From assembly GCF_000219625.1 (NCBI RefSeq), contig NC_018213.1:2536055-2600054 (forward strand): DNA of 64,000 nt, given 5' to 3'. Within the stretch, counting starts at the first letter, position 1, and each line of letters begins with the position of its first letter. Position numbers and translations under genes: made by a program. The notes under the pieces are model-generated. The model was not told the origin of the DNA and did not search any database. It saw only the letters and a list, made by a program, of their open reading frames with translations. This stretch comes from Zymoseptoria tritici IPO323 (taxonomy: Eukaryota; Ascomycota; Dothideomycetes; Mycosphaerellales; Mycosphaerellaceae). Shown in pieces: positions 3,617 through 52,829 of this stretch.

Positions 3617-4015
3617 ATGCCGCTAATTCGAATAGGAATGGTTTCGTAATAGTAGTAATAGTAGTTGTAGTGTTATAAGTGTTCGAAGTTAAGCTGAATT
3701 CTCAGCCGTCCAGTCTTTCCTGAATTTGCTTTGTAATCATAGATAAGGTCAAATAACACGCGCTTATTAGCTCGCTTAATCTCGTACAGCCTCGTATTGC
3801 GGCCCGTGTCAGTGAATGATAGTCAAGGGCCCTTGCACGTGACAAGGGTGGAAGTGGAGAAACGAGCGGCTGCAGGAGGTGACTGTAGCCCTTGGGCATG
3901 TCACCGGCCTTTCCGCGCCAATGTGATCTCTTCATCGACTGCCGAAATGTGCTCAAGCAGGCGAGATAGACTTTGTCGACCGTTCGCGCTATTCCTGCAT
4001 GCAGGACACAGGATA

Positions 4016-4171
4016 CAGCGTGTGAGCGCATCGGACGGGTCACTGTTCAATCCTTGCCCAAAAAACTATTGGCTTGATTACAACGGCGCGGACCAATAGT
4101 GCCTAGATATCAACCCTGGGGCCTGCAAGTACGCCAACCAGCGGTGACCCGTCCGATCCGCTCACATGCTG
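4016..4171. mobile_element. MITE-like unit 1 (TA-flanked, about 30-bp terminal inverted repeats)
   Basis: The left end CAGCGTGTGAGCGCATCGGA is inversely repeated at the right end (..TCCGATCCGCTCACATGCTG) with few mismatches over about 29 bp. Both ends are bordered by TA (4014-4015 and 4172-4173). A TA duplication with a CAG..CTG terminus is typical of Tc1/mariner-derived MITEs. The unit is 156 bp and has no coding capacity. Confidence 0.6.
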
Positions 4172-4859
4172 TACAGCTGGCCAGGAGCCCGGCCATAATT
4201 TCGAGTGCAATCATATGGTATGACTGCATTTGGAAGGAGCAGCGACGATGGCGCAGCGAGCACGCCAGAGCTCCTCGATACTTGCCAAAAGACGGCTTCG
4301 ACTGAGTTTTCGACGTCGGCAGCACCCTGGCCGTGAATGATCCTTGGTTCACCTCGCTGGGGATGATCTATCTGTCCTCACCGTTGGGCATCAAGATGTC
4401 AGATGGATCGGACTCCCTCGATCCGTAAGCTGTTGCGCTCCTCGAAGCGGTCATACCAGCGACTCCGAACCAATGTCGTCTTGACAGAATGTCCATACTT
4501 GCCTGAACAAGGCAGCGACAAGGTCTCCGAAAGCTAGCGCTGCTTCCCGCATGCAGCACAGGGACTGTAGACACCGGCGAACTAACGCACAGGTCCTGTC
4601 AAAGAAGCAAGATTTTGTGGCCTGTCCGTGAACGGATTGCTGACACTCCACGATCATCAGTCCGTGCTTACAAGAAGAGCACATCGATTGAGTTGTCGGC
4701 GTCAGCGCTGTTCGCTGGACCCAAGCTGCACAGCACATGATGCGATCGACATGCAGGCTCAAAAACGCCCGTAGGTGAATTGCCAATGGAGTCATAGTTA
4801 GACTATGAAGCTTCAGTAAGGGAACGAGGTTCGAGAGTCGGACCCAAACGCACCCATTA

Positions 4860-4971
4860 CAGTGTGTTGACACATCGGAGTGGTCACCCATTCTGCAGGC
4901 TCAGGGGCTGTCCCGAGTCCCAATTGGCTTGAGTTCCAGGACGGTGACCACTCCGATGTGCCAACACGCTG
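4860..4971. mobile_element. MITE-like unit 2 (TA-flanked, about 30-bp terminal inverted repeats)
   Basis: The left end CAGTGTGTTGACACATCGGA pairs with the right end, which finishes ..CCGATGTGCCAACACGCTG. Arms of about 29 bp match with two visible mismatches. TA borders both ends (4858-4859 and 4972-4973). The terminal repeat is the same family as unit 1 (shared core GTGACC..TCCGAT). The unit is 112 bp and non-coding. Confidence 0.65.
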
Positions 4972-6145
4972 TACAGTACTATCGATTCATACTCAAAGAG
5001 AGCCCAGACCACGCTGCGACAAGGAACATCCTTCCTGCCTGGAGGCTACCTGCACCGCCCAGGAGATCTCCATTCTTCACATACTGTGCCCCGCCATTGA
5101 TACGAAGGAACTGTAAGAGCAGTATCTATAATTACTGTCCGCGCTACTGCTGTATGCAGGCCGTACCTTGCGATGACTCTGGCCTGAGCTCGATGATCTT
5201 CAATTCTGGTTGATACGTCTGGAGGCCGGCTTCTAATTACTGAGCGCACATACTACTAAATCTTGCACGGACCGAAAGCACGATGTTGACCTCGGCCGCT
5301 GGAGACAATGCCAGCAATCCCGGATCAATACAGCGAAGTTGGCATATAGCAATGGAGCAGTAGCCACTGCTTCACCGCTCAAGCTTTGTCTCATGCACAC
5401 AGGGATGGTGCTGGAAGCCTTCCATCAATATCCGGAGCGCGATCGTGTCAACAACGTGCATTCATTCGATTACGATGACACAGCCATGTATGATACAATC
5501 GAGTAGCAGCGCCGGTGGTGATCAACCGCTCTTAGTCGCTGTTGCAAGGGCACCGCCAGGGTTGGGGGTCAGCCGTGCGCAGTGATTACAAGGGATATAC
5601 CAGGTACGGAGTAGCCTTTCGCATGGCATTTCAGCGCTTGCAAGCCTTTTGGCATGCTCTAGAGCCGTATACCAAGGGCATCTTGCATGAGACATGGTTC
5701 CGGTGGGTCACCATCGCACTGGTGAGGTGATTGTATGAGGGGTGAAATTACACTTCCCTGCTGTATGGACAGACCCTGTAAGCTAACGCGAATGGTCCAC
5801 TGACAGGCCTCAGGATAAAAACTCACCGCATGCGAACGCATCGGAGTGGTCATCGTTCAACAACCCCGGTCTGCGGAGGTGAGTCGATTCATCCCTGGGC
5901 ATACTCGTGTACCTGTAAACGAGGCTTCGATGCGTTCGTGTGTGCAGTATGCGAACGTATCGCAGTAATTACGAAGAGAGTAGACCAATCCGTCCAATTG
6001 GCTACAACACGCCTGATTTCTGCCTGCAAGCGTCTGTCAATGTCGCACTTCAACATCGAGCTGCCACCTTCCGTTCCGGAACGCAGCGGTTTCTACACAA
6101 GGGTGCCCTTGTGCCTGCAAACGAGGCGACCTAGGCGACCCATTG

Positions 6146-6383
6146 TGTTAATTGAGTAGTGCAATGCAGGGGTGAACTTCAAGATTGAGAAAAACCATGT
6201 GTTTCTTGAGGTTATCGACCTAAAGACTATATAGACGCCGTGATTCCAAATACCTAAAAGGGGTTAGGGTCTTATCGCTAATATCCTATAATATCATATA
6301 GGACACTAACTACGTAATTAGGCTGTTAGAGTTAATATCCCTAGTCTTACCCTATTTTATAAATTAACGCTAACAGATCGACA
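6146..6383 (-). repeat. Copia LTR, left copy (3' LTR)
   Basis: 238 bp, TGTTAATTGAG..ACAGATCGACA on the plus strand. It differs from the right copy at 16 sites, all transitions. At the first seven sites (to 6242) this copy carries the unmutated base; at the last nine (from 6266) it carries the RIP-type base. Confidence 0.92.
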
Positions 6384-6396
6384 CACCCCCGAGATC
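6384..6396 (-). other. Polypurine tract of the Copia element
   Basis: The minus strand reads GGATCTCGGGGGTG immediately before the 3' LTR, the expected plus-strand primer site for reverse transcription. Near-identical purine tracts occur twice more at 29,380-29,425. Confidence 0.75.
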
Positions 6397-34344: not shown

Positions 34345-34582
34345 TGTTAATTAAGTAGTACAATGCAGGGGTGAACTTTAAGATTAAGAAAAACCATATG
34401 TTTCTTAAGGTTATCGACCTAAAGACTATATAGACGCCGTAATTCCAAATACCTAAAAGGGGTTGGGGTCTTATCGCTAATATCCTATAATATCATATAG
34501 GACACTAACTACGTAATCAGGCTGTTGGAGTCAATATCCCTGGTCTTACCCTGTTTCATGAATCAACGCTAACAGATCGACA
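34345..34582 (-). repeat. Copia LTR, right copy (5' LTR)
   Basis: 238 bp. RIP-type bases at the first seven variable sites (to 34441) and unmutated bases at the last nine (from 34465), the mirror image of the left copy. Confidence 0.92.
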
Positions 34583-34614
34583 CATTGTCACCACTCCGAT
34601 GCGCTCCCACGCGG

Positions 34615-34883: not shown

Positions 34884-36775
34884 TCAAGCGATGCTGACGA
34901 AGTCGCCACCGTCATACTCAATATTGAAAGTGCGGAGCAGGTTCCTTGCCGCTGTCTCGCCCGTTGCGAAAGCACCGTGAACACAGCCGTTTGCGACCAT
35001 GGTGCAATGCTCGCCGGCGAACTGAAGTCGGGAGTCTTTGTGATTTTCCAAGGCATCCATCATCAGTTCTGGCTCGTCGCCGACTTTGTCTGCAGAGTAG
35101 GAGCCAAAGCCGGCAAGTGGGCTATCAGTCTGTCAGTGGCGGTCCGTGGATCGATGATGTATGAAGGGACAGTTGAACTCACTCCTGCGTCCACTTCGTC
35201 GTCTCGATATTCAACAGTCGAGGCAAAGCTTTGTATGGCTCGGTGCGTAGCAGGCGGAACAGCGGCTCGAAGAACTTGTAAAGTGCTCTCTTGTCCGTCA
35301 TTGCCTCTATGCGTTGGGTCAAAGGCTCAGCTACTTGAACGCAGAGTTCTTTGCTCCCAGTCATGATCCAAAGATTGATGGTGACGGTGGCGTAGTTTAG
35401 GATGCTGTCCACTTCGCTAGAGTGCGAGCTGTCTGAACCTGCGGAGGTGGAGTACAGATCCTCAACTGCGAGTGGCGGCGTTGGATAGTACATGAACTAA
35501 ATGATATGTCAGGTTGTGCCCTTGGAAACAGAAAAAAAGTAATCGGCTCACCTGATCGTTGTCCTTCGACCAGAACACATCAGCAAACTCGAAGAACACT
35601 TTGCCGAGAGCTCCGTAGCTGAATTTGGTAAGAGCATGCTGCATGTCGTCCGGAAGGCTTGGTTCAAAGGCGACCAGTCCATGGCGAAGAACACCAAGGG
35701 GCAGTGTCGATATTACCGCATCGCCTTGGAAGGTGGATAATTCTCCATGAATGTCATGGCACTCAACAGCACATGGTTGCCTTGAATCGCATGGTGTTTG
35801 TGCATCGGCCCAGGAGATTCGATCGACGATGTGATTCAGGGTGATAGTATTCGGCTTCAGCGACTCAGCCGTCCATTTCACAATGTTATCGTAACCACCT
35901 TTCATGTACAAGTTTCGCTCGGTGATGAAGTATGACAGGTGTTTTGAGCTTGAAAACTCGGTCGAAGTTCCAAGCCAAAGTTCGACTTCTTTCACAGCCA
36001 TCGGAGCCCACATTCTTTCATCGTTGGTGATGAGTTCATGTTCTTGCACGAATTTGTTAATGAAATCAGACACGCTCTGGTCGGGAGCGTCGGGATGTGT
36101 GTCGTAGAACCATTCGCAATGGTCTGCAAATTCGTCGGCAACCTTCTTCGCCTTGAATTGTGCTCCGGCACGGCCTTGCTCTGTGTAGTATAATGGGAGG
36201 CCATCATCGTAATAATAATCGAGCTTGAGAGAGGAGATGAGTTTAACCAATCGATTCTGAGATGTTTCGTGAAGCCAAGCCGCGCCTACATGACGTTGAA
36301 AAGCAGTTAGCAAGCTTTGAGACAAATACCCTGGAAGTGATGAAGCCTTGCGGCCCTCATGCAGACCCACTCAGGTCTGCAGCTCAGTGTCAGCTACAAC
36401 TTCCTCTTCGAGGAACTGACCGATGTCTCTCGGCACTCCTTGTTCGTTCCTGGTGGTGTGTATGCGTCCACCGATTCGATCACGGCCTTCCAGTACCACG
36501 ACTTCGACTCCATGCCGCTGGAGAACAGAGGCAGCACGCAAGCCGGCGATGCCAGCGCCTACAATTATGACCTTGACCTCTTCTTCGGGCTCCAGTCCTG
36601 GGTTGCCTGCTTTGATAGCCGGCATCTCGTCCGCAGAGGTCTTGCCGCTGAGAGAGATTGACACATCGTCTTCACCCAGGCCGGAGCCAAGATTCGAAGG
36701 TTCTTTGGGAGGGCTTTCGCATATCCGTGACGTGATGTGATATAACTGAGCCATGTTTCGCTGGCAATTTGACAT
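34884..36775 (-). CDS. FAD-dependent amine (polyamine) oxidase
   Basis: Flavin amine oxidase that would oxidise a polyamine or monoamine to an aminoaldehyde with release of H2O2. Four exons: 36775-36421, 36285-35552, 35496-35183, 35121-34884, with introns of 135, 55 and 61 bp and GT-AG borders. The exons join in phase to 546 residues. The Rossmann FAD motif is [17 protein letters not shown] at about residue 70, followed by [16 protein letters not shown]. The first splice rebuilds [11 protein letters not shown], the second DNDQFMYYP and the third [13 protein letters not shown]. Near the C-terminus, [17 protein letters not shown] is the second flavin-binding motif. No signal peptide or peroxisomal tripeptide is evident. 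A polyamine substrate is inferred from the neighbouring ODC and DHS-like genes. The start is the first ATG of the open exon; a few residues are uncertain. Confidence 0.88.
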
Positions 36776-37226
36776 TCGACTGTGTGCTGTGAAGGTGCGG
36801 TACCCAAGACGATGATCCTGTTGCTGTCGTTTTTAGTACCATGGGATGCGTAGGTACTTGTTGTAGCCCCGAGTGAGGTGTGAGGTTGAAGAGAAGGCGG
36901 ACGCGGGAAGTCGGGAGTGGAGCCCCGAAAACTTGCCGCTTAGTCAGTGATACATAGTTCATCGTGACTGAGATTGCGCAAGCGAGGGACTTGCCTCCTC
37001 GACTGAATTGCGACCTCCACCTCCACGTTCCTCTGAATCACGCGACTCCACTATTATAAGCCTGAATCTTCTGATGACAGTGGCTGCTACTGCGAAGATG
37101 ACCGCAATGATATTGAACTACTTCACCTTCAAGCACTGCGGGCGGGAAGACGCCGCCAGCGATTCGAACACCTCTGCGTTGACAATAAGCCTCGCTCGCC
37201 CTAGCAGCGGTTGTACGAAGCACCAG
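36776..37226. other. Intergenic region, amine oxidase 5' flank and MFS 3' flank
   Basis: About 450 bp between two co-oriented minus-strand genes, so it must hold the amine oxidase promoter. No clear TATA box or regulator site can be assigned by eye. Short open frames here overlap nothing conserved. Confidence 0.5.
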
Positions 37227-38802
37227 CTATAGCGATGTCTCTCGAGTCTGGCCGTGGTGCGACTCGCTATGGACCATTTCAGACTCGTTTTCAGCCGAAT
37301 TGGAGACATCTTCGCCTTTGACAAGCCAGATCCAGAGCAGAGCGATGCCAAACGAAAGGCCTGCGAGCAAAAGACCAATAGCAGCAAGTCCACTTCTTGA
37401 CGGAATCGGCAGAATCAGGATTGGACCAATCGTGATGCCGAAGTAGTGTGCAGCGTTTTGTATGCCAAAAGAGTGCGCCACGATATGTTTCCAGTCGTAT
37501 TTGCCACTGGATTCCCGTTCCATGTCTTCCAAGACATTGTCCATGAGGACATAGCCAGCAGGTTCAGTTGCATCCAAGAAGATCCTAATGCATACTAAGA
37601 GTACACATAGAAGAACGATCGAAGAGACTAAGTTCGACGTCACAAGGCGTAGGCAGATTGTAGACGGTACCAGAGCACAAAAGCTGACAGATCCGACGAT
37701 TCGAGCACCGTATTTATCGGCCAACCAGCCTGACAGAAGTTAGCGTCGCCCTAATCAAAAGCTTTGGTTCAGGTACCGTATACTGGTTCGCAGAGCGCCG
37801 GTATTAATACAGGCAGAAATATCAGACCCTGACCAAGAGGGCCCCAATAGGACTGTCCTCCAACGAACACTGGTAGGACCTGCTCGAGTTAGCCGTTCGT
37901 ATGTGACAACATGGAACACCGCGGAAATAGCAGGGAAGAACGACATACCGTGTCAATCGCAGATATGAAGATGCCGCTTACAACCACCGCCAAAAGACCC
38001 ACACGCATCATGGATCTGCGTAATAGATTCCTGCGAGTGAAAGGCGTTGCTGCTGCTCCTAATTGGTCATCGGCCGGCACTGCCGTTTGTTGCGCTGCTC
38101 CATGGCAGTCAGTCCTTCGTTGAGGCGAGCGAATGACCAGCGGTACGACTAGGTTGAGGGCAAGTACACCGCCCACGACAAAGAACAATCCACCCCAGTT
38201 CAGAAAACGGTACAGCACTCCTCCAAGCAATGGCCCTGCTAGGAAACCGAGATTCATTGCTGCACCGGCATATCCCATTAACTGTCCGACAGCATTTTCT
38301 GGTGAGCAGTCCAGAATGATGGTGATGCTCGTGACTTGAATGAGAGCGGATGACAGTCCCTGGACAATTCTTCCCGCAACCAGGGCACCGATAGACCGAG
38401 GGATAGAGATGATCGCCATTGCGACTCCAAGGAGGACTATGCCGAAGAGTAGGAGCAAACGATGACTACGGAGGATCTTGGCCAGGAAGCCGACCACAGG
38501 ACTCGCGAGCAGGGTTGCCAATGCCTCTACGGTGAGTAAGATGCGAATCCATCGACTTACTGAAATATCATCATCAGTTGCGCACGCCCACGATCACCGC
38601 GAAGTACGCACCTTCATGCTCCGACACCGAAAAACGTGGAACCAGTATGCTTGGGAGTACTGGCAACAGCTGTCCCGTCGAGATCAGTCAACGACTGCGA
38701 CTTCGGATTTGCGAGTCTTACGAAGCCGTAAAGCAGTGTATGCTGCGAAGCTGTGTCAGCTTGCGAAGCATTGTAAAGTTGTATATGGTCGTTTCACTTA
38801 CT
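37227..38802 (-). CDS. MFS transporter, vesicular-amine-transporter-like (DHA1 type); start codon unresolved
   Basis: Membrane exporter of the drug:H+ antiporter-1/vesicular amine group. Exons (descending): ..38802, 38742-38722, 38669-38612, 38559-37949, 37879-37777, 37729-37227. All borders are GT-AG and the phases agree. The joined protein reads RSRPVFVIGALSFCLFT (TM1), then LLYGFLLPVLPS, then SVSEHEVSRWIRILLTVEALATLLASP and VVGFLAKILRSHRLLLLFG (the MFS motif A loop). After that come GRIVQGLSSALIQV and GYAGAAMNLGFLAGPLLGG, AIDTVLPVFVGGQ, and GWLADKYGARIVGSVS. This is a full set of about twelve helices. No ATG exists in the first exon's open frame (38802-39044), so either an upstream mini-exon supplies it or the gene has lost its start. 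The amine or polyamine cargo is inferred from family and neighbours. Confidence 0.8.
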
Positions 38803-39183
38803 GTGAATAGACAAAAGCTGAGCGCTCCGATCACAAAGACCGGCCGTGATCGTATGTGTTCTAGATCTAGTGCTATGGCGATGTCAGGAGTGTAATGTCT
38901 CCGGAATAGTGGAGCAGGGCAAGTGTAGCCTGTATTCGATACTATCGAGCTGAGCTGGAGGGAGTATCTGCGGTGAGCGATCGATCGCCTGTCTTTCGGC
39001 TCCGAGGGTCGGCGTCGTTGTAGATGATCGGCGAAGGTGCGCAATAAGCAAATAAGTCTAGTCTTAGCCCTGAAACTATCGATGTAAGTAGAAGAGTACT
39101 CGGCCGCTGAGTCGACCCTTTCTAAGCTAACTCATGGTTCCTTAGTTTACCTAGATTCTCGGTATACTGCTAAGGTTACGACG
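38803..39183. other. Divergent promoter region between MFS and ODC genes
   Basis: The minus-strand MFS gene and the plus-strand ODC gene are transcribed away from each other, so this interval of under 400 bp must drive both. That suits joint regulation. The left part also holds the still-open first exon frame of the MFS gene. No specific operator was recognised. Confidence 0.5.
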
Positions 39184-40823
39184 ATGTCTTTCCTTCCCTG
39201 TGCTCGTGTCACGCATTCCCGCGATTTCCGCGGTCCCTTTCGGCTCAAGCAGAAGCTCCATGTCTATGCCTCGATGTCTGATTCCTATATTGTTCGTCCT
39301 TCATTGCGATTCGCTAACGGCAACAGAGCCTCGCCTTTCGATCTCATCGATCGTACCTCATGGCTTTGGACCAGATTGTGAGATTTGACACTACGTTCAG
39401 CAACGATGCTTGACCTGCTTAGCATTGCAGCGGACCACTGCTTGAAATCCGAGGATTCCTTCTTCCTAGCAGATTTCGGCCGGGTTGTCAAACAGTTCGA
39501 ATTATGGAATACACACTTGCCGGCCGTTCGTCCTTTCTATGGTTCGTCCTTACTGCAATTAGAGATGTCTGGAGCCCTTAGCTAACATTACCAAAGCCGT
39601 GAAATGCAATCCTGATCCAAACCTACTCGGACTACTGGCGCAGCTTGGCTCCGGATTTGACTGCGCCTCGATCGCTGAAATGCATCTTGCGCTTGCTACC
39701 GGTGTACGATCAAAGGACATAATATTCGCAAACCCATGCAAAGCACCCTCTGCTTTGGCTTTTGCCGCCCGAGAAGGCCTCACCACGACAACCTTTGACA
39801 ACCACAGTGAGCTCGAAAAGATCAAGATCTTGATGCCGAATGCGAGACTTTTGCTCCGGATATATGCAAACGATCCAACAGCGCTGGTACCGCTTGGAGA
39901 CAAGTTTGGTGCTACACGCTGTTCCGTTGCGTCTCTCCTCCACAAAGCCCATGCTCTTGGACTAAATGTTGTTGGAATCAGCTTCCACGTTGGTGAGAGC
40001 TTTCCATTTCTTGAATCACTCCCCCCCGACTTACTTGCTGTTCAGGTTCTGGCGCTTCAGACCTAGACAGCCTTCGTGCAGCTATTGAGAGTGCCCGGTA
40101 CGCTTGGGACCTGGCCGAATCATTGCATATGCCCATGGAGATCTTGGACATTGGCGGTGGCTTTCAATCCTCCTCGAAATCCTTCATATCAATGGCGACG
40201 GCGGTAAAAGAAGCCATCGCTCGAGCCCGGTTCCCAGCCCATACCAAATTGATCGCTGAACCGGGTCGATTCTTCGCAAAAGATGCTTATACCCTGTTCA
40301 CTCAGGTGATTTCCCTGAGAGAGAACGACACGCATGAACAACCCTGCCGTACTTCCTGCAGTTGGCAGCACATGCTTTACCAGAACGATGGAGTGTACAA
40401 GTCGTTCATGAATCGCATCATCGAAAAGGAGGAGTTCCACCCTATTCTGGTTCCGGTCTCACGGACCAATAATGTCCTGGAGGAGGGAACGCATACTTAC
40501 TCGATCTGGGGACCAACATGTGACAGTACTGATCTCATCTCGCGAAGGGCAGCATTCCCGTGCCGCGTTCAAGTAGGGGACTGGTTGATGTACGAGAACA
40601 TGGGAGGTAAGCAGAATGACTCTGTCCAAACTCTAAAGGAGGCAAGCCCAACACTGACGAATTGTCGATGATAGCTTATACTTTGTCAACTGCAACAAGG
40701 TTCAATGGGTTCTCGGATGAGCGGCGGATCCTTTACGTCAACAATTTGGAGCGGGACGATGAAAAGCAGACCTGGAATGGCAATAGCGAGTTGAGCGGCC
40801 AGAGGCTGGGGTCCTCGTTGTAG
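39184..40823 (+). CDS. Ornithine decarboxylase (fold-III PLP-dependent)
   Basis: Decarboxylates ornithine to putrescine. Five exons: 39184-39352, 39401-39541, 39597-39992, 40046-40606, 40675-40823. Introns are 48-68 bp, all GT-AG, and join in phase to 471 residues, close to fungal ODC length. Splicing rebuilds RPFYAVKCNPDP (PLP-binding Lys), FHVGSGASDLDSL and ENMGAYTLSTATRFNGF. Other conserved elements are SGFDCAS, ILDIGGGF (phosphate-binding glycines), LIAEPGRFF, QNDGVYKSF and WGPTCDSTDLI with the catalytic Cys. No key residue is missing. The N-terminal 60 residues are not conserved, so the first exon and start are less certain. The gene may be a cluster-dedicated paralogue rather than the housekeeping copy, which is an inference from its neighbours. 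Confidence 0.88.
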
Positions 40824-42005
40824 AGTATACTTCCATGGAACATGTAGATGGGCATTGCCTTCGACAACGATCTATCATATCAATCAGGATCGCTACAGAG
40901 TGTTTTGCTCTTTCCATCGCTACGTGCAGCTACAGGACGTGAGCAACAGTAAGAGAGGAGAGAATGCACGCCCTAGCAAGCTTGGGCCGTACAAGGGCAG
41001 TTTCTCCTCCTGTTTTTCGGTAGGGAGTGAGCTTCAAGTGGGGACGCTCTGTGCATGTGCGAGTGAACAAAAGTCCGCGCTTCTCCGTAATCCAGTGGTT
41101 TAGTATGATAACACAGTACCATCTTGCTCCGCCTGCATCGGACTCTCCTGCATTGATACCTTGTGTTTAGTATTCAGCAGGTAGACGCACCCAGCGGTGT
41201 ACCACTGGTTGACACATCACACGAGCAATTTCGGGGCGCATTTCTGGACGCAATTTTGCCTACCTACCCTCTCGTCGTCTCATCGTCAGGAAATAAGCCT
41301 TGTGACAAGCATCGAACGGTCTGTCCGCGCCAACCTGCTCTAACCACATTGCGTAATCACTCTTTTCGGTGCGCCAAAAGTCATCTCGTGCATGCGGGAT
41401 TTTATGCCCGTGGGGTGATCGACTAGCCGTGCCGTGCACACGCCCTGTCATGAGCAAAGATCGCCGTGTTCCCGAGCCTACACTAGTAAAGAATCGTCCG
41501 TATCGCCATCAGGGGGAGGCATTGGATCCTGCTCCAGTGACCGGTCTTCTGCGATCCTGAGCGGTCGAGTAAGTCGTCGAAGAAATTCTCTTCAGTAACG
41601 AGGCTCGTCATATTCATTGATGGATCCTTGTAGAACGGCTTGGCAACTTCCCAAAGAGGAAAAAAGAAAGATCAGCCGCTAGCTTGCTCCTTCAGAGTTC
41701 GGTGGTTGAAGCCGAGAATGCTACTGACTAAAGGTATTCACTACCAGCTGATTGGGCCCCCCGCTTTCATCATGACTAGTAATCTCAACATCATCAGTGA
41801 GCTCGTCACATTTCATCAAAGGTCCGTCATATTCAGCAACCGTCAAACACACCTTAGACATGACGATTCATGTTGACCACTCAGGACTACTACAATCAAC
41901 CGTCTGCTTTCGTGCATTTTTCGCTCACATCCAGAACAATCTCCGAGACAGGACCACACACACACTCTCTCTGCTTATCCTCACAACAACCCCTCTGATT
42001 GCAAA
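40824..42005. other. Intergenic region, 1.2 kb, between ODC and the DHS-like gene
   Basis: Several open frames of 60-90 codons occur on both strands (for example 41163-41426), but none starts with a convincing ATG context or shows a domain. No terminal repeats or RIP signature were seen. The right end, a C/T-rich stretch with CACACACACTCTCTCTGC before 42006, looks like a fungal promoter/5' UTR of the DHS-like gene. Confidence 0.5.
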
Positions 42006-42980
42006 ATGTCTTCCATGAAGACGTTCCTTCGTCACAACTTCCGCCATTTCAATGCAGCCACGGTTGTGGATGCTGCAGATGGCTGGCAGGCTGTGCTGGA
42101 CCAAAGCGGCAAGATGCTGCTCACGATGGGCGGTGCTATGAGTACTGCTGAGATGGGCTTGTCTGTGGGTCAGCTCATCCGACAAGACAAAGTTCATGCC
42201 CTCTGTGTGACCGGAGCCAATCTCGAAGAGGACATATTCAATCTTGTCGCGCACACGCACTATCGCCGGATTCCCAACTACCGGTCACTTACCGCCAAAG
42301 AAGAGATGGACTTACACGATCAAGGCCTGAACCGCGTCACCGACACCTGCATTCCAGAGGACACAGCGTTCGAAAAGATCCGGCACCAGGTTCTCGATGT
42401 GTGGCAGGAAGCGGAGAAAAACAATGAGCGTCTGTTTCCGTACGAGATGTTCTATCGGATCTTACGCTCCAATCGCCTCGAATCTAAGTATCAGATCGAC
42501 CCGGCGGATTCTTGGCTGGTGGCTGCTGCTGAGAAGGATCTGCCCATCTGGACTCCCGGCTGGGAAGACTCTACCCTTGGCAACTTCTTTGCTGCTTGCA
42601 CTCTGCAAGGCAAAGTCAGCTCGCCGTTGTTGATGAAGAACGGTATCGAGCAAATGCATTCGCTGATTGCTTGGTACCGGAAGACTTCGACGACATCGCC
42701 TATCGGATTTTTCCAGATCGGTGGCGGCATATCGGGCGACTTTCCCATTTGCGTTGTTCCGCTCATCCACAAGGACCTCGAACTCCCGTGCCCTCTGTGG
42801 GCGTGCTTTGCACAGATATCCGACTCCACCACGTCGTACGGTTCCTACAGTGGTGCGGTGCCAAATGAGAAGATTACGTGGGGAAAACTTAATGAGAACA
42901 CTCCGAAGTTCGTCATCGAGTCGGATGCTACCATTGTCTTCCCTTTGATCGCACACTACTTGCTGGAGGAAGAAGTCTGA
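42006..42980 (+). CDS. Bacterial-type deoxyhypusine-synthase-like protein, candidate homospermidine synthase
   Basis: Intronless, 324 residues. It belongs to the DHS family: NAD-dependent transfer of an aminobutyl group, to eIF5A lysine in true DHS or to putrescine in homospermidine synthases. Motifs in order: MGGAMSTAEMG (about residue 41), VTGANLEEDIFNLVAH (68), YRRIPNYR, NRVTDTCIPED, GWEDSTLGNFFA (185), GFFQIGGGISGDFPICVVP (234), ISDSTTSYGSYSGAVPNEK (271), ITWGKL (290, with the imino-forming Lys at 294) and ESDATIVFPLI (305). The wording SDSTTSYGSYSGAVPNEKITWGK and GGGISGDFPICVVP is that of the bacterial DHS-like subgroup. Eukaryotic DHS has GGG-x-x-K-H-H and an acidic D-G-S-D stretch there; the two Asp positions are Tyr here. 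It is therefore unlikely to be the housekeeping eIF5A enzyme. Homospermidine formation is inferred. Confidence 0.88.
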   Translation: MSSMKTFLRHNFRHFNAATVVDAADGWQAVLDQSGKMLLTMGGAMSTAEMGLSVGQLIRQDKVHALCVTGANLEEDIFNLVAHTHYRRIPNYRSLTAKEEMDLHDQGLNRVTDTCIPEDTAFEKIRHQVLDVWQEAEKNNERLFPYEMFYRILRSNRLESKYQIDPADSWLVAAAEKDLPIWTPGWEDSTLGNFFAACTLQGKVSSPLLMKNGIEQMHSLIAWYRKTSTTSPIGFFQIGGGISGDFPICVVPLIHKDLELPCPLWACFAQISDSTTSYGSYSGAVPNEKITWGKLNENTPKFVIESDATIVFPLIAHYLLEEEV

Positions 42981-43351
42981 TGCGCCTTACTGGAGATGAT
43001 TTGGTCGCTGAGGTACGAATGCTGAGCAATGTTGACTGTCGATGAAAAGGTGGACTCAAGGAGTCAAGACGTCAGCATAAGGTAGGCGAGTGCCGCTCGC
43101 ACTAGCGCCAAAGATCTGTACCCGGCAAGGATTTCAAGGATGATCGGCCGTTCCGGCCCGTGATGTATCGCAAGATAAGAAATTGCGCGACGTGAATTGC
43201 TTCTCTTCTTCACTCGCAGGTTTGACCGCATGGGCTCTTCTTGAAGGGCACTGGTGTGGTGCTGAGGAGACATACCAGTGACACGTCAATTTTCGCCGCT
43301 CTAAGGAAGCCACTTCACCTCGAGGACAAGGGAATTTTGGGCGGACGAAAC
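42981..43351. other. Intergenic region upstream of the second MFS gene
   Basis: 371 bp with the DHS-like 3' flank and the MFS 5' leader. The open frame of the MFS extends upstream to 43241, but the first ATG in frame is at 43352. Nothing else is recognised. Confidence 0.5.
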
Positions 43352-45022
43352 ATGTCTACTACGACTTATCCCATTCCGGAGGTCCTGCCTGGAACCCTCC
43401 AACTTTTCGTACAGGATGGAGGACATCTCCGCGACCAAGAGATCACGTTAACGCCTCCGCCGACCACAAGCCCGAACGATCCTCTAAACTGGTCGCCATG
43501 GCGGAAGTACTGGCATGCCACACTCGTGCTCTTTATCACTGGCCTCACGGCAGCCACGTCGAACAGCGCTGGGGCAGCTGGCGATGGAATGCTGGAAGAA
43601 CTTGGTATTCACTACAGCGTTGCTAATACAGCCGCCGGAGTGCTGTTTCTTGGCATCGGGTACTGGACTTTGTTGGCTAGTCCGATGCCTTGGCTCTACG
43701 GACGACGCATTCAGTATCTGATAAGCTTGGGGTTCTCTATTATTGGTCTGGCATGGTTTGCGAACATCCAAGGGGTCCAGGACTCGATTTGGTGCCAATT
43801 GTTCGTTGGTGCTTCCGAGGGCTGCGCAGAAGCACTGGCGCAACTATCCTTGTCCGACCTGTTCTTCCAACATCAGCGCGGCTCAGTTCTGGGTGTGTAC
43901 ATTCTCGCAACGTCCGTCGGGACGTTCTTGGGTCCTTTGGTGTCAGGATACATCGCTGCAGATGCCTGGCGATGGGTCGGCTGGACAGGTCTTATCATCT
44001 CCGCTGCCACTCTCGTTACATTCTACTTTGGACTGGAGGAGACTGCGTTCCATCGAGAGGCCATCCTCGGGCGTCATCTCGGCGGGCAACCTGTAGAGAC
44101 ACTTGCCGATGAGAAGAAAGACGACAAGGGCCAGCTGGACGCCAGAGGCTCGACCGATAGCGACACGATCCCAATGGACCGGCGTCGAACCTACCGCGAG
44201 CGCATCGCTCTTATTACTCCAGCTCCCAACATGATCGGTACTGGCTTCAAGCAATACTTTCACCGCCTCTTTCATACTCTGCGAGTGTTCACTTTTCCCG
44301 CCGTCATCTACTCTGGTCTACAGTGGGGAGCTCAAGACGCCTGGCTTACATTCTACCTTACGGTGGAAGAGGACAATTACTATGGTCCGCCGTGGAACTA
44401 CTCCAACTCGGCTGTAGCAATCATGAATGTTCCGACATTGATTGGTGCGGCGATCGGCTGTGTATACGGTGGCTGGTTCTCGGACGTCTTTGTGCGATGG
44501 ATGGCGAAGAGGCCTGGCCGAAATGGCATTTCCGAAGCGGAAGATCGCTTGTGGCTTATGTTTGCCTCAGCCTTCATCAATCCAGCTGGGCTGATGCTGT
44601 TCGGTATCAGTTCGTCGAAAGGCGCAGCGTGGCCGGCGCCGTATGTCGGACTTGGAATGATTGGTTTTGGATTTGGTTGTGCGGGCGATTTGTCGATGGC
44701 TTATTTGATGGATGCATACCCCGATATGGTGCTGGAAGGAATGGTCGGCGTGGCTGTCATTAACAATACACTGGCTTGTCTCTTCACTTTCACGACGAGT
44801 AAGTCTTCAGCGTTTGTGCATGATCAAAAGACCAAAGCTAACGACATCGCAGGCTATTGGATCGAGGCTAGTGGATTGGCCGACACATTTATTGCGATTG
44901 GTGTTTTGTCTTTTGTTTTCCAGATGACGACTGTACCCATGATGATCTGGGGCAAAGCTTGCAGACGGTGGACATACCAGCGATATCAAAGATTCTTGTA
45001 TCTAAGAGACGGAGAGCAATGA
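43352..45022 (+). CDS. MFS transporter, DHA1/polyamine-exporter type
   Basis: Proton-driven exporter of the plasma membrane. Two exons, 43352-44798 and 44853-45022, give 538 residues. The intron is 54 bp, in frame and free of stops, but has a GTAAGT donor, a GCTAAC branch site and a GCAG acceptor. Its removal gives FTFTTSYWIEASGLADT as in relatives. The start at 43352 (MSTTTYPIPEVL) precedes the hallmark SPNDPLNWSPWRKYW, after which helices begin (LVLFITGLTAATS, GVLFLGIGYWTLLASP, YLISLGFSIIGLAWFA). GRRIQYL stands at the motif A position. A long cytoplasmic loop (about residues 235-305) precedes helix 7. It lies downstream of the DHS-like gene on the same strand, so it may export the pathway product. 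Confidence 0.85.
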   Translation: MSTTTYPIPEVLPGTLQLFVQDGGHLRDQEITLTPPPTTSPNDPLNWSPWRKYWHATLVLFITGLTAATSNSAGAAGDGMLEELGIHYSVANTAAGVLFLGIGYWTLLASPMPWLYGRRIQYLISLGFSIIGLAWFANIQGVQDSIWCQLFVGASEGCAEALAQLSLSDLFFQHQRGSVLGVYILATSVGTFLGPLVSGYIAADAWRWVGWTGLIISAATLVTFYFGLEETAFHREAILGRHLGGQPVETLADEKKDDKGQLDARGSTDSDTIPMDRRRTYRERIALITPAPNMIGTGFKQYFHRLFHTLRVFTFPAVIYSGLQWGAQDAWLTFYLTVEEDNYYGPPWNYSNSAVAIMNVPTLIGAAIGCVYGGWFSDVFVRWMAKRPGRNGISEAEDRLWLMFASAFINPAGLMLFGISSSKGAAWPAPYVGLGMIGFGFGCAGDLSMAYLMDAYPDMVLEGMVGVAVINNTLACLFTFTTSKSSAFVHDQKTKANDIAGYWIEASGLADTFIAIGVLSFVFQMTTVPMMIWGKACRRWTYQRYQRFLYLRDGEQ

Positions 45023-45134: not shown

Positions 45135-47540
45135 TCAAGCATCCAACTCCATCATCGCAGCACTCATGTCAGGGTCTTCGCCCATGTCGAACTCATCATC
45201 ATCACCGTTGCGCTGAGCGTCAGCCATGACTTGGTCGCCTGCATACCCATCAATATCGGCGCCGCCATTCAGCTCCTGCAGCTTCTCCTGCGCATGCTGT
45301 TTACTCTGGTGCTCCATCAAGTCCTCGTAGCTCCACGTACTGATGCCATCCTGCAATTTCGCGGGGAACGGCTTACTCATGTTCTTCAAGAACTTCTTCG
45401 CCGCAGCAACGGCCTGGTCGACCGACATATTTGCGTCGCTTTCCATCATCGCGCTGCCGATCCACTTCGGGAGCTGCGTGCGCTTCTTGGCGAATCGCTT
45501 GTCCGCCATCACCATGACTCCGTAGTCGTCCTTACCGCGCAGGACACGACCCAGACATTGGGCGCAGTGTCGCATGGCGTCGAAGGATAGGAAGTCGTTC
45601 TCTCTGATGCGGTAGGTCTCTCGTAAGAACTCAAGACGAGCTTTAAGAATCCTGGACTCGGTGTATTGGAAGGGTACGCCAATACATAGCACGGTTCGAC
45701 CGTAGTGGTGGTCGAAATCGATGCCTTCAGAGACTTTGCCACGGGCGACACAGAGTAGCACTGCGCCTCTGCCGTTGCTGCAGGCTGTTCGGTACGTTTC
45801 GAGCGCAAGAGAGGTTTCCTGACTATCTGGTGTCTCGACCAGGATCAATTTGCTTTTCCAGACTTGGTCGAGGATTCCCATTCCCTGCCACATTGAGATG
45901 ACACTCTCCATGTACAGATATGAAGGGAAGAAGACCACGATGCCATCGGGCGTCAGCTTCGAGAACTCAATGATCAAAGCGCCGTAGTTGCGAATGTTGC
46001 CGGGATCGCTTCGAGTTTGGAAGCCGGAGGACATTTGACCCTGATCTGAACCTCTCGTAACGATCATGGGTAAGAAAGAGCGTCTGGCGAGTGTCATTGC
46101 ATATGATTCTTGCACCACTGCGGTGAAACCCAGCATCTTGGGATACATTTCGAGCGGAGAGATAGTTCCCGACGTGATGATGACCGAGCTGAAGCGGTCA
46201 AAGACTGGCTTGATTGCGATCGCGGCATCGAGACAAGTGAAGTGGAGAATGGGATTCGGGACGGTTGCGGTATCAGATTCATAGGGCTCCAGGATGAGCA
46301 GGAAGCCTGTGTCGTAGGTGGCGACAAGAGTTGCGAACGTCGCGACTTCTTGCAATGGCTGGTAGTCTTCGATATTGCTGAGCTCCAACGTGCGCACAAG
46401 TGAGGTGAGTCGTTCGGCACAGAAGCGTAGAGGCTTCTTCTCGATGAATGTGAGTTCCTTCAGATGCTGTAAGAAGGAAGGAGGTGTCTCGGAGATGACA
46501 TGCAGAACTTTCATGCGCGTCTTGAGGTACTCGATGAAGCGTTTCAAGAATGCAGTGAAGTGCTCCGCTCGTCGAATATTGCCGGGAATGGCTTCTTTGA
46601 GCAGATCATCTGGGAGCGCCGGATTTGACATGAAGGCACCTTCGTCTCGGGCCTCATCTGCTTCTCGCAGACCCTCCACCAGCTTTGCATATTCGTTCTG
46701 AAGCTTTTCAGCATCAGTATCCTTCATCTCGGTAATTTTCCGCTCCAAGTTGCTGGCTCCTCGAGCGGCCTTCCTCAACGAGTCCTCTGTCAAGTCAATG
46801 CTCAGAGATTCAATACAAACGTTGTCGATGTTGTGAGCTTCGTCAAAAACCACGATGCAATCTTTTGACAACTCTTTCGATACTCTCTCGGCGATCTTGG
46901 GATCCAGTAGATAGTGGTAGGAGTAGATGATCACATTGCAGAACGGCATCATTCGTCTTGCTGTGAAGTATGGGCATTGCTTCTGCTGTTCGCCGTATCG
47001 AAGCATCCCGTCGAGTGTCCAAACGCCAGGCGGGATGAGATTGTGCGGCTCCAGCAGATCCAGGTTGTCGTGATAAATGCAAAGGTCAACATCCTCTCCC
47101 CGCTCCTTCTTCTCCTTCACGAATCCAGCCGTCAGACTTCGACATCTGGAGTCCACCACTGAGCCACTCTTCTCACGCTTCACCGACGGATGTAAACAGA
47201 GATTCTTTCGACTTGTGAGACCAAGACCTCTGAAGTCCTCCACCTCGCCCAGCTGGTCTGCCCGATACTTCATCAAAGCCTTCAATTCCGCCAAAGCCTT
47301 TTCAATCTCGGACATCGTACGAGAGCAGTAGATGAGCTTTCGATGTTCTGGGTAGAACTGCTGGTACGCCACGATGAGCGATAGCAGAGATACGGTCTTT
47401 CCTGTTCCCGAAGGCATCTCCAGTACGCAGTGACCTCCGCTGTCCAGCGTGCGCTTGAGATCGCACATGTATGCATATTGCTCCGGGTAGATCCTGGGAT
47501 ACGGGAAGAGGACCGGGAGGTCCTCGATGAAGAACTTCAT
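45135..47540 (-). CDS. RAD3: XPD/Rad3-type 5'-3' DNA helicase, TFIIH subunit
   Basis: Superfamily 2 Fe-S helicase of TFIIH, needed for promoter opening structure and nucleotide-excision repair. It is a single exon of 801 residues, the usual length. The N-terminus MKFFIEDLPVLFPYPRIYPE is characteristic. Walker A is MPSGTGKTVS at 42-51. The four Fe-S cysteines are at about 115, 133, 154 and 189. The DEAH box VVFDEAHNID is at about 231-240. Motif III-like ITSGTISPLEM and the C-terminal helicase motifs VARGKVSEGIDF and QCLGRVLRGKDDYG are intact. The C-terminus is acidic. Its neighbour on the left is the accessory polyamine-type cluster, so this gene marks the start of the conserved core block. 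It is divergent from the listerin gene. Confidence 0.97.
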   Translation of the reverse strand: MKFFIEDLPVLFPYPRIYPEQYAYMCDLKRTLDSGGHCVLEMPSGTGKTVSLLSLIVAYQQFYPEHRKLIYCSRTMSEIEKALAELKALMKYRADQLGEVEDFRGLGLTSRKNLCLHPSVKREKSGSVVDSRCRSLTAGFVKEKKERGEDVDLCIYHDNLDLLEPHNLIPPGVWTLDGMLRYGEQQKQCPYFTARRMMPFCNVIIYSYHYLLDPKIAERVSKELSKDCIVVFDEAHNIDNVCIESLSIDLTEDSLRKAARGASNLERKITEMKDTDAEKLQNEYAKLVEGLREADEARDEGAFMSNPALPDDLLKEAIPGNIRRAEHFTAFLKRFIEYLKTRMKVLHVISETPPSFLQHLKELTFIEKKPLRFCAERLTSLVRTLELSNIEDYQPLQEVATFATLVATYDTGFLLILEPYESDTATVPNPILHFTCLDAAIAIKPVFDRFSSVIITSGTISPLEMYPKMLGFTAVVQESYAMTLARRSFLPMIVTRGSDQGQMSSGFQTRSDPGNIRNYGALIIEFSKLTPDGIVVFFPSYLYMESVISMWQGMGILDQVWKSKLILVETPDSQETSLALETYRTACSNGRGAVLLCVARGKVSEGIDFDHHYGRTVLCIGVPFQYTESRILKARLEFLRETYRIRENDFLSFDAMRHCAQCLGRVLRGKDDYGVMVMADKRFAKKRTQLPKWIGSAMMESDANMSVDQAVAAAKKFLKNMSKPFPAKLQDGISTWSYEDLMEHQSKQHAQEKLQELNGGADIDGYAGDQVMADAQRNGDDDEFDMGEDPDMSAAMMELDA

Positions 47541-47980
47541 CTTGAATGAAGAGCGAAGGTGGTGGGCGGAACAATCTCGATCATGCTCGCCACAACATAG
47601 CAGTTACGATCAGAAGCACAGCCGATGGTATGCGCGTTCGTGTCCGGGTCAGCCTTGATGTCTCTGGAAGCGTTCAATGAGGAGGAGGTGAATGTTATTG
47701 ATGGCCGAATGTTGAAGATGACTTCAGCAGCGATCGGAGCTAGTACCTGCTTAAGTAAGCCGCTGCGATGCTAGCGCCAACCTTATCTCGTTGGAGCGTC
47801 ATTGCCAAAATTGAGAACCTAAACCGTCAACGTCGAATAACCTCAGCTTTTACATTCACCTCATCTCCTTCCCTAATCCTCCTTTGCGCGACTTTCCTTG
47901 CAGCGGCATTCAGTCCGGAGCTCGACAGATCGACCACAGGAGTGTTGAGGAATCGGGCCAAAGCTGTTTCTTTCGTCATC
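47541..47980. other. Divergent promoter region, XPD / listerin
   Basis: 440 bp between the XPD start and the chosen listerin ATG. The listerin frame stays open upstream to 47768, but the peptide there is unlike any listerin N-terminus. No other gene is seen. Confidence 0.5.
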
Positions 47981-50900
47981 ATGAGCCGGAAATTCAAGTC
48001 GCAAGCAAGCAGTGGCCGAGTGGGCACTTTTGGCAATTCGGGATTCGGCTCGACACAATCATCGACATTGTCATATATTCAGGAGCCTCTCGATTATTCT
48101 GGTATCAGTGATGCTAACGTTGTGGTTGCCTTGAAGAATCTCACGAAGAAGGACAGCACGACAAAGACCAAGGCATTGGAGGATCTGCAGGCCGGGCTTG
48201 TGACGGACAATGATATCAGTGATGCACTTTTGGAGACTTGGGTCCGTCTATTTCCTCGTCTGTCGATAGACAATGCCCGCAGGGTCCGTCAATTGGCGCA
48301 TTCTTTGAACGGTCAGCTATGCGCAAAATGTGGGAAGCGTGTGGCGAAGCATTTGCCCAAGATCGCTGGCGCCTGGCTCTCGGGACTATTTGACAACGAT
48401 CGAGCTGCCGCGAAGGCTGCGCAGGATGCTTTGTCAACGGTGTTCCCAAATCAGGAGAAGATTCAAGGTCTTCGGAAAGCTTTCCAGGAGGCCATTCTGG
48501 AATATTGCCGAGATGCTCTTCTCAATGAGACTGCACAGACACTAAGTGATGAGCGTGCTGTGAGCGTAGAAGACGCTCAAGCAACACATGCGCGGGTTGT
48601 GTCCACCAGCATCTCCGTTGTCTCGAGTCTACTGGAACATCTGCCATCTGAAGAAGTTGCGAAACAAAGCTATCTTTACGAAGCAGTGTTCGGCGACAAA
48701 GGCTTTTGGGAGAACGCTGCGCATTCAGACTCCACCGTTCGGAAGGCACTTCATCGTTTGGTCCGAGTATGCTTGAACAAACAGCCCGCATTCGTTAGCG
48801 ACAACTTGAAGCTGGTCTCGCATGCGTTCCTTTACAAAGCTCTACCTTCAGATCAGACTGGATCGAGTCTGGACTACGCACAGACCTTGCATGTCCTTAC
48901 AAGAGAACTTCCTACGGCGTGGACTGAAGCTTACACTGGCAAGAAGCCCGCAATGTCACGCCTCCGGCAGTGTCTCAAAACCGGATCATACTCCGGACCT
49001 CCAGGCTTTTGGGACGCTATGAGCAACGTCTTCCAGATATTGCCAGCTGAAGTGCTGCCGAAATCGTACGATGAATCTGCGGATCTACTGCTTGCAGCAC
49101 GAGATGGTGTTACGAGGAAGGAAGAGCGCTTCAACGCATCCGCCGCATGGCCAGCATACTTCACGCTCGTTGACCTCGCGGCTCGGCAGCTGTCAAGCGA
49201 AGACTGTGACAAAATTCTCCAAAATTTCGCAGTGCCTCCTATCAGCCAATACCTGCAACCTTCGGACGAAACTTCTCAGTGGAACGTGACTGGCGCAAAA
49301 GCAGCTCAACTAGTATCCAAGGCTGCCATGGTCAAGGGTTTTGGGCCGCTCTTAGAGCGCGAATGGCCGGCGTACGCTGACAAACTCATCGAAAGCGCCA
49401 AAACTTCCCAGCCAGAGCAGTCCAAAGACTTTGACAAATCGCAAAAGCATGTTGCCACCACAGGCGAGAGGTGGGCTGACCTCCAAAGAGAATTGTATGC
49501 CACCGCATATGACTTGCCTGATTCTACGAGATCTGTCTTTGCCGACGCCAACGCGAAGATTTTGAGTGAGGCAATTGCGCTGCTGAAGACTCGCAACGGC
49601 AAGCCGTATGGAGCGGCTGCTATTGTCGAGCAGCAACTACGGACGTGCTCCTCTGAACTGTTGAGGGATCAGAATTTCAAGAACACATTGCTCGCATTCT
49701 TGAAGAATGATATGCCAAGTCTGGTATACAGTCCGGCCCAACGGCATTTGACCCGCTGCTTGTATGCAGTCGTTTCAGAGTCTGAGTTTCAAGAAGTCTT
49801 CGATACGACACTGGCGGCCATACTCAGGGGTGACGACACAGACAACTCGAAGACGAAGGCTTTGCATGCGTTCTTTCCGATGAACACTCCTTTGCAAGCG
49901 GTCGAGCTTGCGCGATCGTCTGAAGTACTGCAAAGCTTTCTGACAACACTTGCGATTGCTCACGCTGATGCTTCTTCTGCAAACCTATTCTCGGACCTTA
50001 TGAAGCTTGGTGTCGTAGCCTCTGAGACGTCTGATCGCCTTCTTTCGCAACTGACGGACTCTCTCTCGCTTTCTGGGCCGGAACAGCAGGTGGCCATCAC
50101 AACCTTCGACAAAATCGCCTCCGCCAACCAGCAAGCGCTCAAAGCGTTCATGTCCAGCCCGAATGGAGCAGGCGAACAACTGATGCCAATTGTGTTGAGA
50201 CTGGAGCAGTCTGCAGACGACAGCGTGGCCGAAAAGGCAGCTGCGCTCTCGTCAAAACTGACATCGACGCTTGGCAGCGAAGCAACCGGTGCACGGTTCG
50301 ACATGATCCTCCACAATCTTGAGAAAGTCTCGTCACAATCACTGCCGATGGACACTGTTCTGGAACTGGGCAGTAAGGTGAACGCAGAGAGTGGCAAAAA
50401 CAATCACAGCCTGCCAAACATCGACGTCTTTCGACGGGCAACGATCGCAGTGATCAAGTCTCCGAAAGAGTCTCTTGGACTTCACAGTCCGCTCGGCGGG
50501 GCTGTGCATATTCTGCGGTCGGAACCCTCAAAGCCGTCGCAAGCAGTGGAATACGATGGCGAAGGACTCTCGCAGGCCCTCAGGATGTCCATGTACCTGG
50601 CGTCAACGATCGGCGCTGACATCGCCTCTTTCTCTAGCGGGCACGCATCGGCATATGTGGCGCTTCTTAGCGTCTGCGTCTTGCTGGTCGAAGACTGTCT
50701 GAGTATCAAAGGCGCGAATGCGATGTGGCTTCCAAGCGAAGCGCAAGCATTGGAGCATGAGATCATGGAGTTTGTGAGAGATGCCCATGCTGTACTTGCA
50801 GAAGTCTCCGCAAAGAACGAGGATGAATTCTTCGCCGGTCTTTCGACGCTCAAGGCGGACTCCGGAAAGTTTTCGCCCCTCGCATACTATGCGTCTCTCG

Positions 50901-52829
50901 CGGCAGTCAAGGCGCACGAGAACATCTTTGAATTACAGGGACACGGCACCGATCTGAACAAATCTTGCGAAGACACTCTGCGCACTGTTCGCGCCAGCAA
51001 AGATCCGCTTGCGCTTACAGCGTACATCGTGGAGTACGCACAGCCGCTCACAGGCGCTCAGTATCTCACTCGACTGTGCAACGAGCTGGTCGCCGACCTC
51101 ACCGCTCTTGACATCGAAGCAAAGGAGAGCGATGGGCTTGGGTCGCTCGTCATTCTCAATGCTATCTTGAATTCTCAGGACGATATCAGCTCCACTATCG
51201 CGAAGAATAGAATGGTCTTCATGGTCAAGCACATCATCGCATGGCTGGAATTAGGAACATCATTGGCCGTTAAAGCTGAGGTCTTAAAGGTCCTGACCTC
51301 ATTGCTGCCGAGCATGTCTGACATGTACGGAGAACACTGGGCACAAGTGACAAAGATTCTGATATCTTTGTGGAGTGCATCGCCATCGACAGACGACGAT
51401 CCGATTGTTTCGGAGAGCAAGATCCTTGTCATCAACGCCTCACTGAGACTTTACAGCGCACTTGAACAGCTTACGAGGGCAGAAGAGCCCAACGACGATC
51501 TTGTAGAGACGACGAAGGAGAACAAGGATCAGTCTTTGAACGGTCTGGTGAACTTGCTGAAATCATCCAGCGATGTCTCCGATCTGCATCATCAGCCGCT
51601 GATGATCACCAACGAACTACTCGCACGAACGCTGTCAAAGACGTCCGTCAAGTCCCTGAACGATGCGGAAGACCTATTCCCACTCCTCTACGCTCCTTCA
51701 CACGCCATTCAGAGCGCCACCTTCACATTGCTCCAGAAGCATATTCCAGCAGCTCAGGAGCAAATTTCATTCGATGCTGCGCTGGAGAACAAAACGGCAC
51801 AACTACCCGACGAGCTGCTGTCTCTTATTATCGAAGCACCGACACTCGACACGCTGGCTGATGCTTCATTCGACGTCGCGATGCCTCTTCAACTGCAAGG
51901 CTTCCTCAACAGCTGGCGAGTTCTATTCGAACATTTCAATGGTTCCAGCTATCGGGTGAAGACAGACTATGTGGAGCAGCTCAAAGATGGTGGCTACGTG
52001 AGTGGTCTGTTGAGCCTGACGTTTGACTTTCTGGGCCACACTCGCGGACGACCAGTAGACGCATCCAAGTTTGACGTCAAGCAGTACACCTCGGACTCAG
52101 AACCCAATGTCGAGAGGGATGTCCAGTGGCTACTTACACATCTCTACTACCTCGCCCTTACCCATCTGCCCAGCCTGGTCAAAGCCTATGTTCTCGACAT
52201 CCGCAGCCGTCAGACTCCTCAGATCATCGAGACCTGGACCGCGAAGTACATTAGTCCACTGACCATCACCTCCAGCTTGCAAGAAGTCGCTGATTGGGCG
52301 GAGAAGAGCGTCAAGGACGATCCAGACTATGAGAATATGACTGTCAAGGTTGGCATGCGAAGCCGAGAAGTCAACGTTGCGTACTTGGTGGATGAACAGC
52401 ACATGGCTATCAAGGTCGTGCTGCCCGAAGCGTACCCTCTGGATGCGGCGAAGGTGACCAGCGTGAACCGTGTGGCAGTCAAGGAGGAGAAGTGGCAGAG
52501 CTGGCTGCGCAATTGTCAGGGCGTCATCACATTCTCAGTAAGTCGGACTATACCCTCTGCACGAGTGAGAACTCTACTAACACTGTCTTTTACAGAACGG
52601 CAGCATCACAGACGCTCTCGCCGCCTGGCGCAAGAACGTCAGCGGTACCCTAAAGGGCCAGACGGAATGTGCCATCTGCTACTCCATCATCAGCGGAGCC
52701 AAGGAGCTGCCCACGAAGCGCTGCCAGACCTGCAAGAACTTGTTCCACGCGAGCTGTCTATTCAAGTGGTTCAAGAGCAGTAACGCGAGTACATGTCCGC
52801 TTTGTCGGAATGCTTTCAACTTCAACTAG
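47981..52829 (+). CDS. LTN1: Listerin, E3 ubiquitin-protein ligase of ribosome quality control
   Basis: Ubiquitylates stalled nascent chains on 60S ribosomal subunits. Two exons, 47981-52537 and 52596-52829, with an intron of 58 bp (GTAAGT, branch TACTAAC, TACAG), give 1596 residues. The N-terminus MSRKFKSQASSGRVGTFG matches the listerin start, which is why 47981 was preferred to the upstream ATG at 47768. A long alpha-helical HEAT-like region follows. The C-terminal exon encodes the RING-variant finger: CAIC, CQTC, LFHASCLFKWF, TCPLC. Splicing joins VITFS to NGSITDALAAWRKN, the conserved RWD-RING approach. The gene ends 160 bp from the convergent PNG1 gene. Confidence 0.95.

Follow-up and report, generated by a model that had tools for sequence, protein, structure and literature searches.

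A homospermidine-synthase-like gene of bacterial descent next to an ornithine decarboxylase paralogue in Zymoseptoria tritici

A 64,000-nucleotide stretch of chromosome 6 (C6) of Zymoseptoria tritici IPO323 (NC_018213.1, positions 2,536,055-2,600,054; hereafter the window, with positions counted from its first letter) contains five contiguous genes at positions 34884-45022. They encode a flavin adenine dinucleotide (FAD) amine oxidase, a transporter of the major facilitator superfamily (MFS-1), an ornithine decarboxylase (ODC), a protein resembling deoxyhypusine synthase (DHS), and a second transporter of the same superfamily (MFS-2). The DHS-like protein is nested among bacterial proteins, and its gene adjoins that of a divergent fungal ODC paralogue, ODC2. 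We consider it moderately probable that the locus holds an acquired homospermidine branch, composed of ODC2, an enzyme similar to bacterial SpeY, and transporters, beside a housekeeping oxidase. A joint pathway of ODC2, the DHS-like enzyme, and the transporters is plausible. On present evidence, the locus is a real and interesting neighbourhood and not an alkaloid cluster.

Gene models were built by splicing at GT-AG junctions and are complete for four of the five genes, the exception being that of MFS-1, in which the start codon is not visible. All five products score over the Pfam cut-offs (in the order given above: Amino_oxidase; MFS_1; Orn_Arg_deC_N and Orn_DAP_Arg_deC; DS; MFS_1). The models and domains agree with the initial annotation of the window, which had listed five adjacent genes of these classes with no unrelated gene between them. 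No additional gene is seen in the intergenic gaps in the list of open reading frames (ORFs), which was read by eye and not searched by family. The Pfam results of the five genes contain no backbone enzyme and no regulator; the initial annotation had likewise noted no nonribosomal peptide synthetase, polyketide synthase, or transcription factor.

Descent of the DHS-like protein

The DHS-like gene (positions 42006-42980, plus strand) is intronless and encodes a protein of 324 amino acids, which matches the Pfam family DS with 140.9 bits. We read it as a bacterial-type, homospermidine-synthase-like (SpeY-like) enzyme with a DHS fold. The only fungi named among its 120 listed relatives are Z. tritici and Botrytis porri. 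Set A1 comprises 18 of the 121 proteins P0001-P0121. The highest identities are to B. porri EAF01_003773 (83%) and to P0004, P0005, and P0007 (78-82%), and all others are at 70% or lower; named bacterial relatives at 65-66% come from Protochlamydia, Myxococcales, Polyangiaceae, and Planctomycetota. One relative, P0006, is 443 amino acids long and contains the C-terminal catalytic part twice.

In a tree of 49 rows, which remained of a 74-row set once 7 rows that were outgroups or odd, and then 18 more from bacteria, had been dropped, a five-row clade that includes B. porri has a support of 100/100. The clade is part of an 18-row group (100/98), in which every named row is bacterial except for the two fungi. 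Because the DHS-like protein is nested among bacterial rows, the entry of its gene into fungi from bacteria is well supported by the sequences. Z. tritici and B. porri may go back to one receipt of the gene, or it may have passed through one of them to the other. The 74-row tree, which includes canonical DHS, has outgroup branches of extreme length (5 to 10), so that it gives no firm branching order for canonical DHS, the cyanobacterial proteins, and the DHS-like clade.

The initial annotation had proposed that the fungus independently recruited its own DHS. This origin is rejected by the nesting of the protein in bacteria and by the canonical DHS of Z. tritici, which is a separate gene on C8 (364 amino acids, one intron), in the searched genome of 39,686,251 bases and 21 contigs. 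Contamination of the assembly is unlikely, since the gene has host-like codon usage, host genes are present on both sides of it in a 2.67-Mb contig (2,674,951 bases), and Z. tritici ST99CH_3D1 has a protein that differs only at residue 296.

Predicted reaction and the ODC paralogue

The predicted DHS-like monomer has a DHS fold over its whole length, and the catalytic W-G-K lysine motif is kept. The three positions that we take to bind spermidine in DHS are occupied by N, D, and Y in the DHS-like protein, by M, N, and L in two cyanobacterial PRK00770-type proteins, and by D, H, and D in canonical DHS.

Neighbours of the bacterial relatives were counted by tblastn in the best 80 of at least 593 confirmed stretches, and many of these 80 loci are cut by contig ends. 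Putrescine-forming genes are near the DHS-like relatives in 29 of the 80 loci, at a distance of 100 bp or less in 12 of those. SpeA-type decarboxylases are the commonest neighbours (22/80), and many of the loci that encode them also contain an agmatinase or a deiminase/amidohydrolase pair, which lead from agmatine to putrescine. The putrescine-pathway genes near the bacterial relatives point to homospermidine synthesis, and the DHS-like enzyme probably makes homospermidine in the manner of SpeY. The branch from putrescine to homospermidine that was suggested in the initial annotation thus stands as the best guess for a DHS-like gene next to an ODC gene, with the putrescine operons of bacterial relatives as its basis instead. 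The SpeY of Anabaena is reportedly a DHS-like homospermidine synthase. Bacteria form homospermidine from putrescine either by homospermidine synthase (HSS) or by the DHS-like SpeY (PMC9992855, PMC10407285), and in Pelagibacterales a SpeY that the authors label as homospermidine synthase is encoded within a cluster of putrescine genes (PMC9992855).

The gene of ODC2 (positions 39406-40823, plus strand) has four exons (39406-39541, 39597-39992, 40046-40606, and 40675-40823), and its product of 413 amino acids is identical to MYCGRDRAFT_44322 residue for residue over the whole length. In addition to splicing, the assignment is based on the two Pfam domains, on the tree, and on the pyridoxal phosphate (PLP)-lysine and the GPTCD and MGAYT motifs, whose roles in ODC2 are assumed here. 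A quick tree of 40 of 120 ODC proteins and the canonical ODC places ODC2 in a fungal paralogue clade (support 100, 32 of 41 rows), together with B. porri EAF01_009293 and apart from the canonical Z. tritici ODC encoded on C7. The exact neighbours of ODC2 are unsure because the tree is quick and the end branch has a length of 1.03. Among the 120 listed relatives of ODC2, the best-scoring matches after itself are from Sclerotiniaceae (52-55%), and the named organisms include no Mycosphaerellaceae other than Z. tritici. Canonical ODC, S-adenosylmethionine decarboxylase, and spermidine synthase are all encoded elsewhere in the genome, and the presence of the latter two there makes the branch of ODC2 and the DHS-like enzyme extra to the normal polyamine pathway.

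In the proposed pathway, a bacterial DHS-fold gene of the SpeY kind entered fungi and adjoins the divergent ODC gene in Z. tritici. From the putrescine that ODC2 would make out of ornithine, the SpeY-like enzyme would take one molecule (or use spermidine instead), oxidise it with NAD+, and hold the aminobutyl group on the conserved lysine, from which the group would be passed to a second putrescine to form homospermidine. One or both MFS proteins may export or store the amine. Gene content, the bacterial descent of the DHS-like gene, its kept catalytic motif, and the operon context of some bacterial relatives are observed; from these the reaction is a good inference, and the product, the link with ODC2, and the role of the transporters are inferred as well.

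Several observations weigh against this pathway. The DHS-like protein scores below every curated NCBIfam cut-off, with 111.7 bits versus 450 for PRK00770 (NF001980) and 103 bits versus 304.25 for deoxyhypusine synthase (TIGR00321). It is only 26-27% identical to the four cyanobacterial PRK00770-type proteins compared, so that its assigned function draws on context rather than on an orthologue with tested activity. Six tested relatives do not reach a curated NCBIfam equivalog cut-off either, and the clade is therefore uncharacterised as far as NCBIfam goes; close orthology of the DHS-like protein to a curated family was rejected. In the predicted structure, the model is poor for residues 274-289, which adjoin the catalytic lysine. 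No putrescine gene is seen in 51 of the 80 bacterial loci, and one is present in 18 of the 48 that extend more than 5 kb to each side, these counts having no random-locus control; among the SpeA matches, several have an identity of just 22-25%. The initial annotation had suggested a search for the five-gene order in other fungi, and the sole comparison, that of the DHS-like/ODC pair in B. porri, is negative: EAF01_003773 is not beside EAF01_009293, and their locus tags are far apart. The database cluster of ODC2 contains a single member sequence, versus six for the DHS-like protein and nine for the oxidase. This difference hints that the gene varies within the species; other strains may lack ODC2 or have another gene model for it. 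In addition, the interval 38873-39406, which precedes the first recognised exon of MFS-1, offers no ATG in frame with it; either the gene has a small upstream exon or its start was lost in IPO323.

Oxidase, transporters, and flanking DNA

The oxidase gene (positions 34884-36754, minus strand) comprises four exons (36754-36421, 36285-35552, 35496-35183, and 35121-34884) separated by GT-AG introns, with its stop codon at 34884. Splicing, Pfam, a structure match, and relatives identify the protein of 539 amino acids as an Fms1-type FAD polyamine oxidase: yeast Fms1 is its best solved-structure match (E 7e-55, residues 59-528) and its nearest characterised relative. No second close Fms1-type copy was found in the genome, where the other matches are partial and at 48% identity or lower, and relatives at 71-76% occur in Pseudocercospora, Zasmidium, Fulvia, Lecanosticta, and Cercospora. 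Most likely the oxidase serves the fungus as its ordinary polyamine oxidase and not as a pathway-specific cyclase, and its gene was probably inherited vertically and is a neighbour of the pathway, not a part of it.

The gene of MFS-1 (positions 37227-38873, minus strand) has six recognised exons, placed by reading the sequence for GT-AG introns, which encode 455 amino acids without a start codon. In addition to the Pfam domain, the protein has weak solved-structure matches to NorA (2.6e-11) and to vesicular amine transporters (4.9e-10 and weaker). The gene of MFS-2 (positions 43352-45022, plus strand) has two exons (43352-44798 and 44853-45022) and a product of 538 amino acids, identified from splicing, Pfam, and one weak structure match; its relatives in the genome are distant (41% or lower).

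The five genes lie between a RIP-degraded repeat island, initially described as a transposon island, and conserved core genes, at 94-104 kb from the contig end. The island (positions 1-34584) was delimited from the dinucleotide ratio, repeats, and an ORF scan. Its bias is like that of repeat-induced point mutation (RIP), with TpA/ApT ratios of 1.55-2.16 in 16 of the seventeen 2-kb blocks of positions 1-34000, and stops at the five-gene cluster, where the ratio is 0.84 and lower. No ORF of 180 amino acids or more, measured from stop to stop, overlaps positions 1-34500. The block at 4001-6000 inside the island is without the bias, has a GC content of 53.5%, and has a longest ORF of 149 amino acids (stop to stop). 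A 240-base direct repeat with 93% identity is present at 6146-6385 and 34345-34584, 28 kb apart, and the pair may mark the ends of a transposon insertion. The second copy, the last that was recognised, stops 300 bases short of the oxidase gene, at whose near end the stop codon lies. The right flank (45138-52780) encodes an XPD/Rad3-type helicase on the minus strand and listerin on the plus strand.

The locus is absent from the 34 predicted metabolite loci of IPO323 in Table 1 of PMC5561558, in which the nearest entry on chromosome 6 is 2,243,873-2,278,779. In the main text of the Z. tritici metabolite papers checked, the words polyamine and amine oxidase do not occur. The open-licence literature in PubMed Central (PMC) yielded no article that combines Zymoseptoria with deoxyhypusine and, in the available text of articles mentioning homospermidine and ascomycetes, no report of a fungal homospermidine synthase. 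Among the listed open-licence PMC matches, nothing was found on homospermidine with fungal horizontal transfer.

Alternative explanations and known systems

The five genes could also be chance neighbours, a housekeeping oxidase next to ODC2, a bacterial gene, and two transporters that each came on their own to a chromosome end rich in repeats and share no pathway. The conservation of the oxidase in related fungi, the separate positions of the DHS-like gene and the same-clade ODC gene in B. porri, and the location beside a RIP-affected island near the contig end are all consistent with this arrangement. Nevertheless, ODC2 and the DHS-like enzyme fit consecutive steps of one pathway, both are extra to the canonical set encoded elsewhere, and the ORF list shows no unrelated gene between the five. 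We regard chance as a possible but rather unlikely explanation. It is still less likely that the DHS-like enzyme joins another amine pair, involving agmatine, cadaverine, or spermidine, into a different long polyamine. Agmatine is coupled by the caldomycin synthase of Thermus, a published DHS homologue (PMC10981699), and SpeA-type genes are the most frequent bacterial neighbours, but many of their loci can carry agmatine on to putrescine. Moreover, the fungal neighbour is by sequence an ODC and not an arginine decarboxylase, even though some homologues of ODC are known to act on arginine as decarboxylases (PMC9992855).

The initial annotation, which allowed for a small free amine or a bicyclic alkaloid as the product, led to the model of a pyrrolizidine-like alkaloid cluster with the FAD oxidase as the enzyme that cyclises homospermidine. 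Genes of the classes that would make putrescine, make homospermidine, and oxidise amines do stand side by side. However, the conservation of the oxidase in related fungi and its status as the sole close Fms1-type copy found mean that its presence is no evidence for cyclisation, and the fungi with its 71-76% relatives are not named among those with the DHS-like gene. The five genes include no tailoring enzyme or regulator by Pfam, and the DHS-like gene is bacterial and not a recruited DHS. Such a product is unsupported, and we consider this cluster highly improbable. The acquired homospermidine branch remains our preferred reading. A bolder form of it is doubtful: that a bacterial homospermidine synthase, a duplicated ODC, and dedicated transporters make homospermidine a specialised amine, exported or stored on or in the plant and possibly oxidised to a cyclic product by the flanking oxidase, the pathway having arisen by horizontal transfer and not by recruitment of DHS. 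If a bacterial homospermidine synthase does work in a filamentous fungus, it would represent another eukaryotic route to homospermidine, opened by gene transfer, and the role of a non-standard polyamine in a plant pathogen would become directly testable.

Among known systems, the oxidase resembles yeast Fms1 in its structure match and ascomycete clade III polyamine oxidases in its three introns, as genes of that clade have 2-4 (PMC7576179). The DHS-like enzyme shares with SpeY of Anabaena and Pelagibacterales the DHS fold, the catalytic lysine motif, the loss of the spermidine-binding residues, and putrescine genes near some bacterial relatives. It differs in its low identity to the cyanobacterial PRK00770-type proteins and a score far under their cut-off, and in being known from sequence, in a fungal host, beside a fungal ODC, and outside a bacterial operon. 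Eukaryotic deoxyhypusine synthase has the same fold and lysine motif, whereas the Z. tritici protein has changed spermidine-binding positions, a sub-cut-off score, bacterial descent, and a separate canonical DHS in the same genome. The plant homospermidine synthase of pyrrolizidine alkaloid formation arose from plant DHS. The Z. tritici enzyme shares with it the proposed product, homospermidine, but, as judged from bacterial and fungal sequences, descends from bacterial proteins and not from the DHS of its host lineage.

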